From NCBI RefSeq assembly GCF_000364445.2, contig NZ_CP043538.1:846501-910500 (forward strand): DNA of 64,000 nucleotides, in the 5' to 3' direction. The notes under the pieces were generated by a model that searched no databases, was not told the origin of the DNA, and saw only the letters and a list, made by a program, of their open reading frames with translations. Positions 58,242-64,000 of this stretch are shown here, in pieces. The number at the start of each line of letters is the position of its first letter. Within the stretch, counting starts at the first letter, position 1. Made by a program: the position numbers and the translations under genes. This DNA is from Methylobacterium mesophilicum SR1.6/6 (GTDB lineage: Bacteria > Pseudomonadota > Alphaproteobacteria > Rhizobiales > Beijerinckiaceae).

Positions 58242-58521
58242 AGCAAGCCTCGAGAAGCAGGGCGAAGATCACCGCGGGATATTCGCTGCGCTCTCGGCCC
58301 TTCGACATCCTCTCGTTCGCGCGGGCAACCGAAGCGCCGGAGGGCGACGTTCCGCCCCCGACAACCGGGCCTGGACGGACCGCGCGCCGGACGGGGCGTT
58401 CGTGTGGGCAGCACTCCGCTGACCGGGCTTGATGACCCCGCCGCCGGCCGCTCCGACCCAGCGCGGGATGGCGTCCGCGATCTCGTCGGCGGCCGGGCCT
58501 ATGAAGATGACGTTGCGCGTC

Positions 58522-59196
58522 CTAGGCGAGTTCCGCGACGAGCAGGGCTCGGGCGCGGCTCACCCGACTCTTCACTGTGCCGGTCTGGCAACCCATCACC
58601 TCGGCGGCGGCCTCATACGTGAGGCCTTGTGCACCCACGAGCAGCAGGGCCTCGCGCTGAAGCTCAGGCAGCTTGCCGATATGGGACCAGACCGTGTGCA
58701 GGTCGGAACCGTGCTCTTGGGCGGCCGGAGCGGTAAGCTGCGCCGCAGCAGCGCCGTCCACATCCTCGATCTCGCGCTTCCGCTTGCGGCATTCGGAATA
58801 GAACTGGTTGCGCAGGATGGTGCAGAGCCACGCCTTCAGGTTCGAGCCTGGGGTGAACAGTTCCTGGCGAGCCCAGGCCCGCAGGACGGTCTCCTGCACC
58901 AAGTCGTCGGCGCGCGAGGCGTCGGCGATGAGCGACAGAGCGAACGCGCGAAGTCCAGGAAGCGCCTCGGTCAGCTCTGCGCGAAAAGCCAAGGCTCTCT
59001 CGCGGCTTTGCCCATCCAGAACGGCGTCAAGCTGCGCGACGAGATCGAGCAGGCGCTGCGGCGTTTGCGGCCTCGCCAGCGCTTCGTAGGCGACGCGCAG
59101 GTGAGCGCCGAGGTGATCCCGCACCCCGGCAGGAAGTGAAGCCGCATCCAGCGGGGCAGGTGGTCTCGGCCGATCAGGCACCGCCCCTTCGCTCAT
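58522..59196 (-). CDS. Fusion of anti-sigma NepR domain to EcfG-type sigma factor
   Basis: A 224-residue protein. Residues 22-60 (G-V-R-D-H-L-G-A-H-L-R-V-A-Y-E-A-L-A-R, then P-Q-T-P-Q-R-L-L-D-L-V-A-Q-L-D) have the NepR pattern L-R-x-x-Y-x-x-[VL]-x-x-P-x-x-x-x-L-L-x-L. Residues 76-142 form sigma region 2 (A-D-D-L-V-Q-E-T-V-L-R-A-W-A, K-A-W-L-C-T-I-L-R-N) and 163-222 region 4 (Q-R-E-A-L-L-L-V-G-A-Q-G-L-T-Y-E-A-A-A, G-C-Q-T-G-T-V-K-S-R), both EcfG/ECF15-like. Normally NepR and EcfG are separate proteins controlled by phospho-PhyR. ATG 59196 starts just before the NepR part; an upstream Met at 59295 would add 33 residues. No phyR or kinase gene is near. Confidence 0.88.
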   Translation of the reverse strand: MSEGAVPDRPRPPAPLDAASLPAGVRDHLGAHLRVAYEALARPQTPQRLLDLVAQLDAVLDGQSRERALAFRAELTEALPGLRAFALSLIADASRADDLVQETVLRAWARQELFTPGSNLKAWLCTILRNQFYSECRKRKREIEDVDGAAAAQLTAPAAQEHGSDLHTVWSHIGKLPELQREALLLVGAQGLTYEAAAEVMGCQTGTVKSRVSRARALLVAELA

Positions 59197-59654
59197 CACC
59201 CTGTCCGTCAAAACATGTCCTCTCGAAGCATCAGCTGTGCTGGCGAACCAAGGTTCACCGCGTGCCCGGCGTGCCGGCGACGCGCGACCGGTCATCCGGC
59301 GAAGGCTTGCCGAAAATGCGCGTCTTCAAGCGTCCACCCTTCGGCATCGGCCCCGCCACCTGACTGTACAGTGAACATCTAACCCCGCAACCGGAGGATC
59401 GTTCTCTGAGCCTTGTGCGTTTGTGGGGGCTCCGTTCGGTGAGCGTCGGGGTCGGTGGGGCGAGCGCAAGCCGTGAGGTTCGCCGCGTCCGGGGAGGCCC
59501 GGGCCTCGGCGCTGCCTTCGGCGCGCCCGTGTGGCCTCAGGCCGTGCAAAACCAAGGGGGAGGGGCCTGAAACGGCGCCGGATCGGAGCGAGGCCACGGA
59601 GCAGGTTCAAGAGGCTCCTGCCGTTGTTCGAAGAGGAGCCGCCAGGCAGCGACA
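59197..59654. other. Gene-free stretch
   Basis: About 460 bp upstream of the fused sigma gene. Frames exist on both strands but are Arg/Pro-rich shadows; no EcfG consensus or other promoter could be assigned with confidence. Confidence 0.45.
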
Positions 59655-59909
59655 ATGCCGCAGAACGTAGTCTACTGGATAGAAGACAGATCGGACGGCT
59701 GTTTCGACGTTATCGTAACGCTCGAGTCCGGCAGGATCTTCAAGCGTTCGGGATGTATCTCACGCGCCGAGGCCGATACCTGGATTGATGGTTTACGGAT
59801 CCTTATGGCCGCGATCGGTGCGCCCGTATCGTCGGCCGACAAAGCGTCGCGGGACGCGTCGCGGTTCGGATCGCAGACGGCACACGATGCCGACCAGACC
59901 ACGCCTTGA
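59655..59909 (+). CDS. Hypothetical small protein
   Basis: An 84-residue protein: N-V-V-Y-W-I-E-D-R-S-D-G-C-F-D-V-I-V-T-L-E-S-G-R-I-F-K-R, then A-D-T-W-I-D-G-L-R-I-L-M-A-A-I-G-A. Beta hairpin followed by a helix; less GC-rich than neighbours. No family recognised. It starts at ATG 59655. Confidence 0.7.
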   Translation: MPQNVVYWIEDRSDGCFDVIVTLESGRIFKRSGCISRAEADTWIDGLRILMAAIGAPVSSADKASRDASRFGSQTAHDADQTTP

Positions 59910-60004
59910 ACAGGCGCCCCGCCTCTGTCCGCTTTCAGAGCCTTCCCATCGACGCGCCCAAGTCTCAGAGGATGAATCAAGTCTCTGAGGATGGATGACG
60001 GGCC

Positions 60005-60331
60005 TTAGGCTTCGTTGTCCGTGCCAGGGTTCGTGGGATCGCCGAACAGGATCTCGTAAGTCATCGGATCGTAGAAGCGCATCACGTTCCGGACGAATTC
60101 CCGGGGCTCGATTTTCAGCGCATCCGCCCAGGCCCGGTAGCGATCCGGAGGGATTCGGCCGCGCCCCGTCTCAAGTTGCGAGATGAATGTATAGTATTCC
60201 GCACCCACGAGGGCGGCGAGCTGTCGTTGTGACAGACCCTGCGCCTCCCGCAATTCCTTCAGATACCGCCCACCTTCGCGACGCAGCTCCAGCACCTCCT
60301 CCGAATCCAGGCGTTGGTAATGCGCATACAC
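60005..60331 (-). CDS. XRE-family helix-turn-helix regulator
   Basis: A 108-residue protein. The Cro/CI HTH spans about residues 20-62 (L-K-E-L-R-E-A-Q-G-L-S-Q-R-Q-L-A-A-L-V-G, then S-Q-L-E-T-G-R-G-R-I). The C-terminal 40 residues (F-V-R-N-V-M-R-F-Y-D-P-M-T-Y) may dimerise. GTG 60331 is chosen; the extra upstream codons look non-conserved. An inverted repeat 42 bp upstream of the start may be its own operator. Confidence 0.8.
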   Translation of the reverse strand: MYAHYQRLDSEEVLELRREGGRYLKELREAQGLSQRQLAALVGAEYYTFISQLETGRGRIPPDRYRAWADALKIEPREFVRNVMRFYDPMTYEILFGDPTNPGTDNEA

Positions 60332-60372
60332 GAGGTTTTGCCTTCCTGCGCGCGATCGCGGCTGCACGCGGT

Positions 60373-60396
60373 GCTATACAGTAAAAACCATATAGC
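60373..60396 (-). promoter_or_regulatory. Inverted repeat in the promoter region of the XRE gene
   Basis: GCTATA (60373-60378) and TATAGC (60391-60396), 12 bp apart, overlapping the likely -10 region on the reverse strand. Suggests autoregulation. The rest of 60397-60693 shows no gene I can support. Confidence 0.45.
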
Positions 60397-60693
60397 TGTG
60401 ACGGCTACGCGCTGTCCAGACACAAGCTGGCGGACTGGGTCGCCCCCGCGACAAGATGCTTGGCAGCCCACTGAATGGCCCTATCATGTCGACCTCAGGG
60501 GCCAGCATGAAGGAGGGTGCCAATGGCCAGACTGCCGTATGGTCTTTCGCATCGGCCGCTCGGACATGTCGACGACCAGACCCTGCGTTCGCGGGCGCGG
60601 ACGTCGGCTCCCGATGGCCTTCGACACGATGATGGCCCGAGGTGGGTTTACCAAGGCCTTTGATGCGCTGGCCGATTGCAGGAAGAAAGCGAT

Positions 60694-62457
60694 ATGGGCG
60701 ATCATTCGCTGCAGTCGACATTGACCACGGGCCTGCGTGCACTCCGGCCCGTCCTGACAACGGCTGTGATCTTTGGATTGTTCATCAATCTTCTGCTCTT
60801 TGTCAGTCCTCTGTATATGCTTCAAATTTACGATCGCGTCATCCCGAGCCGAAGTGAGACGACGCTCGTCGGGATTACGCTGATCGCGGCTGTCGGTCTT
60901 GCCGTTTATGCGACCTTGGACATGTTGCGGTCGCGCCTTCTGGTGCGTGGGGGCGTGATCTTCGACCAGGAGATCGCCGATCCGATCTTCGATGCCGCCC
61001 ATCGCGGCATGCTGATCCGGCCCGGGGCCCGGCACGACACGGCGCTGCGGGATGTGGACATCCTGCGCGAATTCCTGACGGGCGGCGGGATGCTGGCGTT
61101 CTGCGACCTGCCCTGGATTCCGATCTTCCTGCTCGCCTGTTTCGTGCTGCATCCTTGGTTCGGCTGGATGGCGCTGGTGGGGGGCGGCACGATTCTCGGG
61201 CTGACCCTGCTCAACGAGATCGCGACGCGATGGACCCTCGAAGCCGCCAGCCGGGCTTCGCGGGAGGCGGGACAGCAGGCCGCCGCGGTCTTCCGGAACG
61301 GGGAAGTGTTGCAGGCCATGGGCATGCTGGCCTCCCTGCGCGGTCTCTGGCGCCGGCGCCACGATGAGGTCCTGGCCCTTCAGGCCCGTGCGAGCGATCG
61401 CGCCGGCATGATCGTCGCCGTGACGAAGTTCGTCCGCATGCTCCTGCAGACCCTGGTTCTGGGGGCGGGCGCGTACCTCGCCATCCACCGGGAGATTTCC
61501 GCCGGGTCGATGATCGCCGCGTCGATCATCATCGGCCGCACCCTCGCGCCGATCGAGGCTGTCGTGGGCAATTGGAAGGGCTTCACGGCCGCCCGCGCCA
61601 GCTACCGGCGGCTGACGGATCTCATCGATGTCGCCAAGCCGGAGACCCGCCGCCTGATGCTGCCGCGCCCGCAGGGCGCGATCCAGGTCGAGAACATCTC
61701 TGTCGCGGCCCCCGGCTCGACGCAGCCGATCCTCAACGCGGTGAGCTTCCGGCTCGAGCCCGGCAGCCTCGTGGGCATCATCGGACCGAGCGCGGCCGGC
61801 AAATCGACTCTTGTGCGCGCCCTGACCGGGGTCTGGCCCCTGCTCGACGGCACCGTGCGCATCGACGGCTCCGACCTGCGTCACTGGGACAAGCAGGCGC
61901 TCGGCCAGCACGTCGGATACCTGCCTCAGGACGTGGAGCTGTTCGACGGCACGGTGGCGCAGAACATCGCGCGGTTCGCCGACGTGGACGATGCGCGCGT
62001 CATCGAGGTTGCCCGGAGGGCGGGCTGTCACGAGCTGATCCAGTCCCTGCCGGACGGGTACAACACGGTGATCGGGCGGGATGGACAGGGATTGTCCGGC
62101 GGCCAGCGTCAGCGCATCGCGCTGGCCCGCGCCCTCTACGGCGAGCCGAGCTTGGTGGTTCTGGACGAGCCGAATGCGAGTCTCGACCAGCTCGGCGAGG
62201 CTGCGCTGATGCGGGCCTTGGCGGAGCTGAAGCAGTCGGGCACGACGGTGGTGATCGTGACCCACAAGGTGAGCCTGCTGGCGGAGGCCGACCGCGTCCT
62301 GCTCATGAGCGGGGGCACCTTGCAGATCGACGGCACGGCGGAGCAGGTTCTGTCACAGATCACCGGCCCGCGCCCGGTCCCCACCCTAGTGCCGTCCGTC
62401 AGCCCCCAGGCCTCCCAGAGCCGCCGGGATGCCGAGGCACAGCGGAGCGCGGGATAG
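60694..62457 (+). CDS. Type I secretion ABC transporter/permease (PrsD-like)
   Basis: A 587-residue half-transporter. About six helices in residues 20-320 (opening F-I-N-L-L-L-F-V-S-P-L-Y-M-L-Q-I-Y-D-R-V), then an ATPase domain with Walker A G-P-S-A-A-G-K-S-T near residue 370, signature L-S-G-G-Q-R-Q-R-I-A-L-A-R and Walker B L-V-V-L-D-E-P-N. There is no C39 peptidase domain, so substrates are RTX-type proteins with C-terminal signals. ATG 60694 has AGGAAG at a good distance. The HlyD partner follows after 3 bp. The last 30 residues are polar. Confidence 0.95.
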   Translation: MGDHSLQSTLTTGLRALRPVLTTAVIFGLFINLLLFVSPLYMLQIYDRVIPSRSETTLVGITLIAAVGLAVYATLDMLRSRLLVRGGVIFDQEIADPIFDAAHRGMLIRPGARHDTALRDVDILREFLTGGGMLAFCDLPWIPIFLLACFVLHPWFGWMALVGGGTILGLTLLNEIATRWTLEAASRASREAGQQAAAVFRNGEVLQAMGMLASLRGLWRRRHDEVLALQARASDRAGMIVAVTKFVRMLLQTLVLGAGAYLAIHREISAGSMIAASIIIGRTLAPIEAVVGNWKGFTAARASYRRLTDLIDVAKPETRRLMLPRPQGAIQVENISVAAPGSTQPILNAVSFRLEPGSLVGIIGPSAAGKSTLVRALTGVWPLLDGTVRIDGSDLRHWDKQALGQHVGYLPQDVELFDGTVAQNIARFADVDDARVIEVARRAGCHELIQSLPDGYNTVIGRDGQGLSGGQRQRIALARALYGEPSLVVLDEPNASLDQLGEAALMRALAELKQSGTTVVIVTHKVSLLAEADRVLLMSGGTLQIDGTAEQVLSQITGPRPVPTLVPSVSPQASQSRRDAEAQRSAG

Positions 62458-62460
62458 GCG

Positions 62461-63822
62461 ATGACCCACTCGCGAGCCGCGATGCCGAGCCTGTCGCCCC
62501 TGCGGCGAACGCCTGACGTGGAGCGGGCGGGCGGCGGTCCGACCAACTGGCGCGTGTACGCCGTCGCCGGCTACGCCGTCATCGTCGCGACGTTCGGTGT
62601 CGTCGGGAGCTGGGCCGCCACCGCACGCCTCGACCGGGCGGTCATCAGTCCCGGCGTGATCGTCGCGGAAGGCAGCCGCAAGGTGGTGCAGCATCTCGAG
62701 GGCGGCATCGTGCAGGAGGTGCTGGTGCGGGACGGGCAGACCGTCCACGCGGGCGACGTCCTGCTGCGTATCGATCCCGTGCAGTCGCGCGCCAGCAACG
62801 ACCTGCTGCGCGGTCAGCTCGACGCGGCCCTGATCCTTGAGGCGCGGTTGCGCGCCGAGCAGGAACAGGCTTCGGACTTGGTCCTGCCGCCGGAGATCGC
62901 GTCGCGACGAGACGACCGTACCGTCGCCCGCATGATCGACGACCAAGCCAGTCAGCTGTCGGAGCGGCGCGCGTCCTTTCAGGCCCAGCTTGAGCTCATT
63001 CAGGCGCGCGTCACGCAGCTGAAGACGGAAATTTCCGGTCTCGCCGTCGAGAAGGCCTCGGTCGAGCAACAGGTCGCCCTAATCCAGCAGGAGCTGGAAG
63101 GCCTGCGTGGTCTGCGCGAGAAGAACCTCATCCCCCTCTCCCGCGTCCTGATGATGGAACGCGAGCACGCACGCCTCGAGGGTGTGATCGGGCGGTCCGT
63201 GGCAGAAACCGCCAAGGCGCAGAACGGCATCAACGAGGCGGGCCTGCAGGCGGCGCAACTCAAGCAGAAGCTTCAGGAAGCGCTCACGGCACAGCTTCTG
63301 GACACGCGCCAGAAGATCGCCGAACTGCGTGAGAAGCTCATCGTCGCCCAGGATGTTCTCCGGCGGCACGAGGTCCGGGCCTCGCATCAGGGTGTCATCC
63401 AGGGATTGAAGGTCTACACGATCGGGCAGGTGATCCGTTCCGGCGAGCCGCTAATGGAGATCGTCCCGACCAACGACCGGCTCGTGATCAGCGTCCAGTT
63501 CGCGCCGAACGATCTGGAGGCTGTCCATGCCGGCATGCGGGCCGAGGTCAAGTTCCCGGCCTTCCAGACGCGCCGCACGCCGGCCATCTTCGGAAGGCTG
63601 ACCATGGTCTCGCGCGACCGCCTGCTCGATGAGGGGACGAAGCAACCTTATTTCGCCGGCACGGTCGAGATCGACGATCACCATTTGCCGGAGGACGTAC
63701 GGCCCCGTCTCCTGGCGGGCCTGCCCGCCGAGGTCGTCGTATCGGCCGGCGAGCGCACCGCGCTCGACTACCTGGTCGCACCCTTCTTCGAGGCCCTCGG
63801 ACACGGTTTCCATGAACGATAA
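62461..63822 (+). CDS. Type I secretion membrane fusion protein (HlyD/PrsE family)
   Basis: A 453-residue adaptor. One helix at about residues 35-55, then the lipoyl half V-I-V-A-E-G-S-R-K-V-V-Q-H-L-E-G-G-I-V-Q-E, typical of PrsE/AprE, a long coiled coil (about 100-310), the second lipoyl half H-Q-G-V-I-Q-G-L-K-V-Y, and a C-terminal barrel. It links the ABC protein to an outer-membrane TolC, which is not in the window. The likely secreted substrate gene may be to the right. Confidence 0.95.
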   Translation: MTHSRAAMPSLSPLRRTPDVERAGGGPTNWRVYAVAGYAVIVATFGVVGSWAATARLDRAVISPGVIVAEGSRKVVQHLEGGIVQEVLVRDGQTVHAGDVLLRIDPVQSRASNDLLRGQLDAALILEARLRAEQEQASDLVLPPEIASRRDDRTVARMIDDQASQLSERRASFQAQLELIQARVTQLKTEISGLAVEKASVEQQVALIQQELEGLRGLREKNLIPLSRVLMMEREHARLEGVIGRSVAETAKAQNGINEAGLQAAQLKQKLQEALTAQLLDTRQKIAELREKLIVAQDVLRRHEVRASHQGVIQGLKVYTIGQVIRSGEPLMEIVPTNDRLVISVQFAPNDLEAVHAGMRAEVKFPAFQTRRTPAIFGRLTMVSRDRLLDEGTKQPYFAGTVEIDDHHLPEDVRPRLLAGLPAEVVVSAGERTALDYLVAPFFEALGHGFHER

Positions 63823-63860
63823 AGCCCGTTCGTCAGTCCACGTGCGGAAGTGAGGTCCCG

Positions 63861-64000
63861 ATGGGTGCGGTCATCTCCTTCTTCCGGCCCGCATCGACCA
63901 GCCAGGGTGGCTGGTCGCAGCAGGAGCTCGCGGAGTTCTACCGCGTCGAGGCCGCGCTGATCCGGGCCGGCCTGCAGATCGGCAGCGAACAGGGTCTGAG
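63861..64000 (+). CDS. Unknown protein, 5' part only
   Basis: From ATG 63861 an open frame runs to the window end (46 codons): M-G-A-V-I-S-F-F-R-P-A then W-S-Q-Q-E-L-A-E-F-Y-R-V-E-A-A-L-I-R-A-G. It lies 38 bp after the adaptor gene on the same strand, so it may belong to the secretion operon. The fragment has no recognised motif. Confidence 0.6.
   Translation, partial: MGAVISFFRPASTSQGGWSQQELAEFYRVEAALIRAGLQIGSEQGL

Follow-up and report, generated by a model that had tools for sequence, protein, structure and literature searches.

An in-frame NepR-like extension on an EcfG-type sigma factor of Methylobacterium mesophilicum SR1.6/6, with homologs in its genus

Introduction

EcfG (ECF15) sigma factors direct transcription from GGAAC/GTT-type promoters. 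Among the closest known counterparts of the gene analyzed here are the EcfG proteins of Methylorubrum extorquens AM1, whose N-termini are extended by some 55 aa resembling NepR (PMC4814048). The same paper states that this extension had been noted earlier in a 2009 PNAS paper (its reference 4), and suggests an ancient fusion as its source. A two-hybrid analysis with and without the extension has been reported for each of the six AM1 EcfGs, in which NepR was bound only by truncated EcfG1 (strongly) and truncated EcfG5 (weakly), and in vitro NepR was bound only by EcfG1 without the extension (PMC4814048). EcfG1 was detected in vivo at full length and also 14 residues shorter, and a sextuple mutant is complemented by either EcfG1 isoform, each of which also pulls down NepR in vivo (PMC4814048). 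In AM1 the extension thus does not act as a complete block. Whether it gives the sigma factor additional features was stated as an open question in that 2016 paper. In the open-licence literature, a description of the fusion or extension was found only in the accessible part of PMC4814048, and the extension is not described in the accessible passages of PMC3892343, PMC8103513 and PMC8999054.

Here we describe a gene of this kind in a 64,000-nucleotide stretch of the M. mesophilicum SR1.6/6 genome, the whole of which is referred to as the window. An earlier note, made from the letters of this stretch, had known of no characterized example of such a protein, a statement that the AM1 EcfGs, with their NepR-like extension and two-hybrid data, contradict (PMC4814048, as far as accessible). 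The fusion is real, conserved and functional-looking.

Gene Structure and Translation Start

On the minus strand of the window, one open frame (58522..59295) runs from a NepR-like segment through a sigma factor and holds a 224-aa protein starting at ATG 59196, whose residue numbering is used throughout. The fusion gene (58522..59211, minus strand) encodes 229 aa if read from TTG 59211 and 224 aa if read from ATG 59196. Orthologs with 82–89% identity were found in six other genomes among the matches listed from a search of 111 genomes of the genus. The start at window position 59211 is TTG or GTG in all seven genes (the window gene and the six orthologs), and upstream of it stands a Shine-Dalgarno sequence, GAGAGGA (59218..59224, minus strand), which is conserved as GA(G/A)AGGA in 7/7, whereas ATG 59196 is present in three of the seven and missing in four. 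Because of this pattern of conservation, TTG 59211 is preferred as the start, and translation probably begins there and yields a product of 229 aa.

Two other starts were considered and rejected. For a 257-aa reading from ATG 59295, the conserved Shine-Dalgarno sequence belongs to TTG 59211, and identity among the seven sequences drops to 45% at positions -90 to -31 from the TTG. An internal start at the in-frame TTG of residue 69 finds this codon missing in three of the six orthologs. The possibility, raised in the earlier note, that translation starts downstream of residue 62 and leaves the NepR part unmade is thus unsupported, the more so as dN/dS in the NepR part is 0.22. In the pMRAD01 copy, the annotated start lies later, at the GTG of residue 25, and still includes the NepR core.

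Profile Evidence for the Two Halves of the Protein

The sigma part matches Pfam Sigma70_r2 with 54.7 bits (residues 79–141) and Sigma70_r4_2 with 52.3 bits (residues 173–219), both above cut-off. Regions 2 and 4, located by Pfam and by the predicted model, correspond to 58774..58962 and 58540..58680 (minus strand), and both are intact, as had been noted earlier. The closest solved chain by sequence is 5uxx_A, the EcfG chain in the EcfG-NepR complex from Bartonella quintana, which the C-terminus of a profile of 52 fused homologs matches with 214 bits. Judged by its regions 2 and 4, the sigma part is assigned to the EcfG/ECF15 type and is nearest to EcfG.

The earlier placement of a NepR pattern in residues 22–60 held against an independent profile and fell short of the curated one. 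Pfam NepR (PF18557) gave 21.0 bits (E 2.6e-4) over a core of residues 27–58 (59023-59118), and 24.9 bits for the window gene in a genome search, both under the curated cut-off of 25.7, so that the segment is called NepR-like here and not NepR. The independent HMM drew on 30 distinct NepR sequences, each encoded separately at a two-gene locus outside the genus (of 34 such loci, 31 yielded a NepR and three were dropped), and it matched the window protein with 27.5 bits at residues 18–61 (59014..59145, minus strand). This score is beyond chance: when the first 66 residues were shuffled 1000 times, the highest score was 6.3 bits, and the non-fused EcfGs of the source two-gene loci reached at most -0.9 bits. 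With the same HMM, an N-terminal NepR signal above 5 bits was found in 118 of the 120 homologs listed. In addition, the N-terminus of the 52-protein profile gave weak matches to solved NepR chains (2lfw_B, E 4.3e-4; 5uxx_B, 0.039; 4qic_B, 0.055). A single frame and profile matches of both halves therefore bear out the initial description of one polypeptide that joins a NepR-like part to an EcfG sigma factor. Some database entries already name such proteins “NepR family anti-sigma factor.”

Selection and Residue Conservation in the Extension

Nei-Gojobori estimates from the seven sequences gave a dN/dS of 0.71 for the N-terminal tail, 0.22 for the NepR part and 0.46 for the short variable linker (residues 61–70; 58987..59016, minus strand), followed by 0.13 for sigma2, 0.05 for the sigma2-sigma4 link and 0.02 for sigma4. 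Constraint on the NepR part is thus stronger than on the flanking segments but weaker than on the sigma part, which shows, at the level of these sequences, that the NepR-like extension is under purifying selection and has been kept by evolution.

The fused segments retain the hydrophobic pattern of NepR (L29, G30, L33, Y37, P46, L52, and L56). Two aspartates, those of the NepR Y-D and P-D-R-F motifs, are both absent from the window protein, which has E38 and Q47, and D38 and D47 are mostly replaced in 108 fused homologs, 12 of the 120 proteins having been left out as too short upstream or without the motif. These aspartates occur in 77% and 93% of the 30 separate NepRs outside the genus, and in 28/28 and 27/28 presumed separate NepRs of the genus (two of 30 loci were left out for want of a motif match), although the contrast within the genus may be overstated because these 28 are the NepR loci with the best scores, position 47 was partly restricted by the search pattern and a few of them lie in long open frames. 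One paralog in the same genome (L014) retains the second aspartate. We infer that D38 and D47 define NepR function.

Paralogs and Genomic Context

The source genome encodes six EcfGs with a collinear extension (the window gene and L010–L014) and one unfused EcfG with its own nepR, plus further NepR-like segments. With the independent NepR HMM, the five paralogs scored 32.3 (L012), 13.5 (L010), 11.2 (L014), 3.3 (L013) and 1.2 bits (L011), so that four of the six extended EcfGs lie above the shuffle maximum of 6.3. The extension of L011 and L013, whose NepR scores are not told from chance, was assigned by collinear alignment. L012 also passes the Pfam NepR cut-off, with 34.5 bits. PhyR (C1:800214) adjoins the best-scoring nepR (C1:801022) on the opposite strand, and no EcfG was listed at the phyR locus in the EcfG homolog search of the source genome.

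The window gene belongs to a block (window 58515-64000) of a type I secretion ATPase, HlyD, a helix-turn-helix protein, a small ORF and the sigma factor. Plasmids of M. radiotolerans, M. oryzae and Methylobacterium sp. NMS14P carry the same block with about 83–84% identity; it lies near repABC in pMRAD01 and, in the source genome, on a 6.56 Mb single contig. A partial EcfG-like sigma factor (L018, C1:912815-913054) was observed 2.3 kb past the window end; this ORF matches region 2 only (query 70–149), is 48% identical to the window protein and is without a region 4 match.

Origin and Distribution of the Fusion

In relatives outside the genus, nepR is followed by ecfG as consecutive same-frame ORFs, often one stop and a codon or two apart. 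Apparent fusions in Mesorhizobium, Aminobacter, Nitratireductor, Bradyrhizobium and two MAGs were rejected on this ground, with a stop lying between two ORFs; all 17 loci read (Mesorhizobium and others) had this structure, and one (L058) had a second stop. Further loci of this kind were read in addition to these 17. An order survey of 397 genomes gave a similar picture: among the matches listed, at least 30 genomes had a match to both modules that contained a stop (two stops in one of them), and the nine genomes of the genus itself had such a match with no stop. As the searches favor same-frame loci, no share of all operons is given. Two further stop-free matches from the NepR part were listed outside the genus. 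One (G473) is without NepR-like sequence and was rejected as a fusion, and the other (G384) is fused but comes from a contig of just 6.5 kb in a genome that is 85% complete; given the small contig, the incomplete genome and the grouping of this copy with the M. mesophilicum paralog L011, the contig is probably a stray.

Four places on Microvirga plasmids (H7, H12, H13, and H15) include three in-frame fusions (L201–L203; 17.7, 12.9, and 12.0 bits with the independent NepR HMM), of which L203 was not listed by Pfam NepR; at the fourth (L204) the frame breaks, and another Microvirga copy (L074) is a single EcfG. These fusions agree with the wording “Methylobacteriaceae” in the accessible text of PMC4814048. 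In a family survey, L012-type matches (E <= 1e-32) were present in 48 of 397 genomes and two of 43 genera, and no stop was found in them among the matches listed.

A tree of the sigma part alone was computed for 74 of 96 loci, 22 having been dropped where a motif filter did not find the sigma factor. A single branch (one change, SH-aLRT 93) separates the 39 fused from the 35 single EcfGs in this quick tree with several long branches, where fused status was assigned from the locus and by eye and not by score; the window sigma groups with the other fused EcfGs by its sigma sequence alone. One origin of the fused EcfGs is thereby allowed, not proved. The two-gene nepR/ecfG pair of the source genome itself has overlapping ends in different frames, and its sigma factor falls on the single side of the tree. 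From the same-frame nepR-stop-ecfG loci in relatives, we infer that the fusion likely arose when the stop separating nepR from ecfG in a two-gene operon was lost, and that duplication followed.

Candidate Promoter and Palindromic Element Upstream

A candidate sigma-EcfG-type promoter, GAAC-N16-GGTT, is located at 59381..59404 (minus strand), according to the consensus form GAAC-N16,17-C/GGTT (PMC4814048). The pattern is present in 7/7 loci (window and six orthologs) versus 0/30 other ecfG loci tested, where the seven carriers are close relatives sharing longer surrounding sequence and, among the 30 loci without it, a few are nearly identical to one another. The window holds 10 occurrences of GAAC-N16/17-SGTT, with 3.8 expected, and the site at 59381..59404 does not match the stricter GGAAC form; as the pattern is short, the site stays a candidate promoter. 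Next to it, about 150 bp upstream of the TTG, lies a conserved 19-base element, ATGTTCACTGTACAGTCAG, with a CTGTACAG palindrome (59360..59378, minus strand). With up to 3 mismatches allowed, this element occurs once in the genome. A slightly changed version precedes L143 and L145, two more distant fused genes, there without the promoter pattern; the element is a possible operator.

Possible Roles of the Extension

AF2 predicted two helices in the extension, at residues 23–41 and 47–58/59, with P46 between them. The mean pLDDT of these helices, per block of ten, was 76–89 with a deeper alignment and 58–74 in the first model; pTM was 0.43 and 0.48 in the two models, and docking of the NepR helices was seen in neither. 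In the first model, sigma2 and sigma4 are arranged more like the NepR-bound PhyR domain 3t0y (rmsd 9.5 over 122) than like RNAP-bound ECF sigmas (15.5–19), in a comparison where 5uxx was aligned over sigma2 only. The second model was nearer to RNAP-bound sigmas (mostly 11–12) than to inhibited sigmas (about 20–24), among them 5uxx and 3t0y (21–23). Since these arrangements disagree, neither model is taken for or against a lock in cis. NepR was not recovered as a fold match of the AF2 model, in a search for which the aligner warns that the NepR part is barely covered.

We propose, with a probability of roughly one half, that the extension acts in cis and shields its own sigma factor from free NepR. 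The NepR-like helices would represent a degenerate anti-sigma factor that sits on or near the NepR-binding face of its own sigma and keeps free NepR from binding there, so that the sigma factor would be insulated or retuned relative to the NepR-PhyR switch and not permanently shut off. Such an occupied or shielded NepR site fits better than a PhyR sponge, because the AM1 extension prevents NepR binding both in two-hybrid assays and in vitro (PMC4814048). If insulation in cis is true, a genome may keep several stress-sigma copies without all of them obeying one inhibitor.

A built-in PhyR gate, in which the cis NepR silences its own sigma factor until phospho-PhyR pulls it off, appears unlikely. 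It would be consistent with the predicted NepR helices and the preserved hydrophobic pattern, with the PhyR and separate nepR encoded in the genome, and with two AM1 NepR homologs that still bind PhyR while EcfG binding was not seen (PMC4814048); on the other hand, the replacement of D38 and D47 in most of the 108 fused proteins may argue, weakly, against it, and the closed form that it calls for is left unsettled by the AF2 models.

We give still less credence to a sponge or decoy that would soak up PhyR or other EcfG copies and so weaken the response. META2p0735, an AM1 NepR homolog, does bind PhyR, and cells overexpressing it become more sensitive to stress (PMC4814048), but the sigma domains of the fusion are its most constrained parts (dN/dS 0.13 and 0.02), unlike what a pure decoy would show, and the two NepR aspartates are lost. 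Equally slim is the chance of a role in stability or turnover, with the extension as a degron or chaperone-like cap and no partner switching: AM1 EcfG3 is regulated at the protein level (PMC4814048), which would suit this role, but the pattern conserved in the extension is that of NepR. A largely functionless, passive leftover of the ancestral operon, to which the sub-threshold Pfam NepR score and the low scores of L011 and L013 (1.2 and 3.3 bits) might point, is highly improbable in view of the dN/dS of 0.22 and of the N-terminal signal in nearly all (118/120) listed homologs.

Taken together, these results sharpen the question of what the extension does: it is under selection, likely arose by stop loss, has lost two aspartates and perhaps goes with a stress-type promoter in this clade. 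The remaining interest lies in this role and in other NepR fusions, to a kinase and to a receiver.

Other NepR-like Fusions in the Genome

One NepR-like segment (C1:4864699-4864797) ends a PAS-PAS-HisKA-HATPase-REC-REC hybrid kinase (L206:920-3319, plus strand), with a Pfam score of 30.5 bits in the genome search (over the cut-off) and 25.6 in the locus search (just under). Across 111 genomes of the genus, a match reaching the NepR part of this kinase was found in 79, in one frame in 65 and with one stop inside in 14. The kinase-tethered NepR could recruit PhyR. Another segment (C1:589846-589944) precedes a receiver domain in one ORF (L207:2161-2877, plus strand), with 28.0 bits in the genome search (over the cut-off) and 24.9 in the locus search (under). 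It is doubtful that NepR has become a movable docking module in this group of bacteria, which would insulate EcfGs in cis when tethered to sigma factors and bring PhyR to regulators when placed on a kinase or receiver; if so, one switch would be wired by tethered NepR domains.

Comparison with Known Systems

Each half of the fusion has its counterpart in one chain of the Bartonella quintana EcfG-NepR complex (PDB 5uxx), with a weak match for the NepR chain, and sigma2 is 57% identical (rmsd 1.9 over 84). However, the complex consists of two separate chains, and the arrangement of 5uxx is seen in neither AF2 model of the fusion. The two-gene nepR-ecfG operon of other Alphaproteobacteria, such as Mesorhizobium and Bradyrhizobium, shares the gene order and, at the loci that the searches recovered, also the frame, but a stop codon separates the two proteins there.

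Close likeness is also seen to EcfG1–EcfG6 of AM1, where an EcfG with a NepR-like extension of about 55 aa also exists in several copies per genome (PMC4814048). The AM1 copy on the megaplasmid is 58.5% identical. In contrast to the window ortholog with its candidate sigma-EcfG-type promoter, no promoter of this type was found for the AM1 ecfG genes, according to the accessible part of PMC4814048. In both genomes, no ecfG lies at the phyR locus, for AM1 as given in that source and for M. mesophilicum by our own listing. The window gene is thus a member of the already described class of EcfGs with an extension in the Methylobacterium group.
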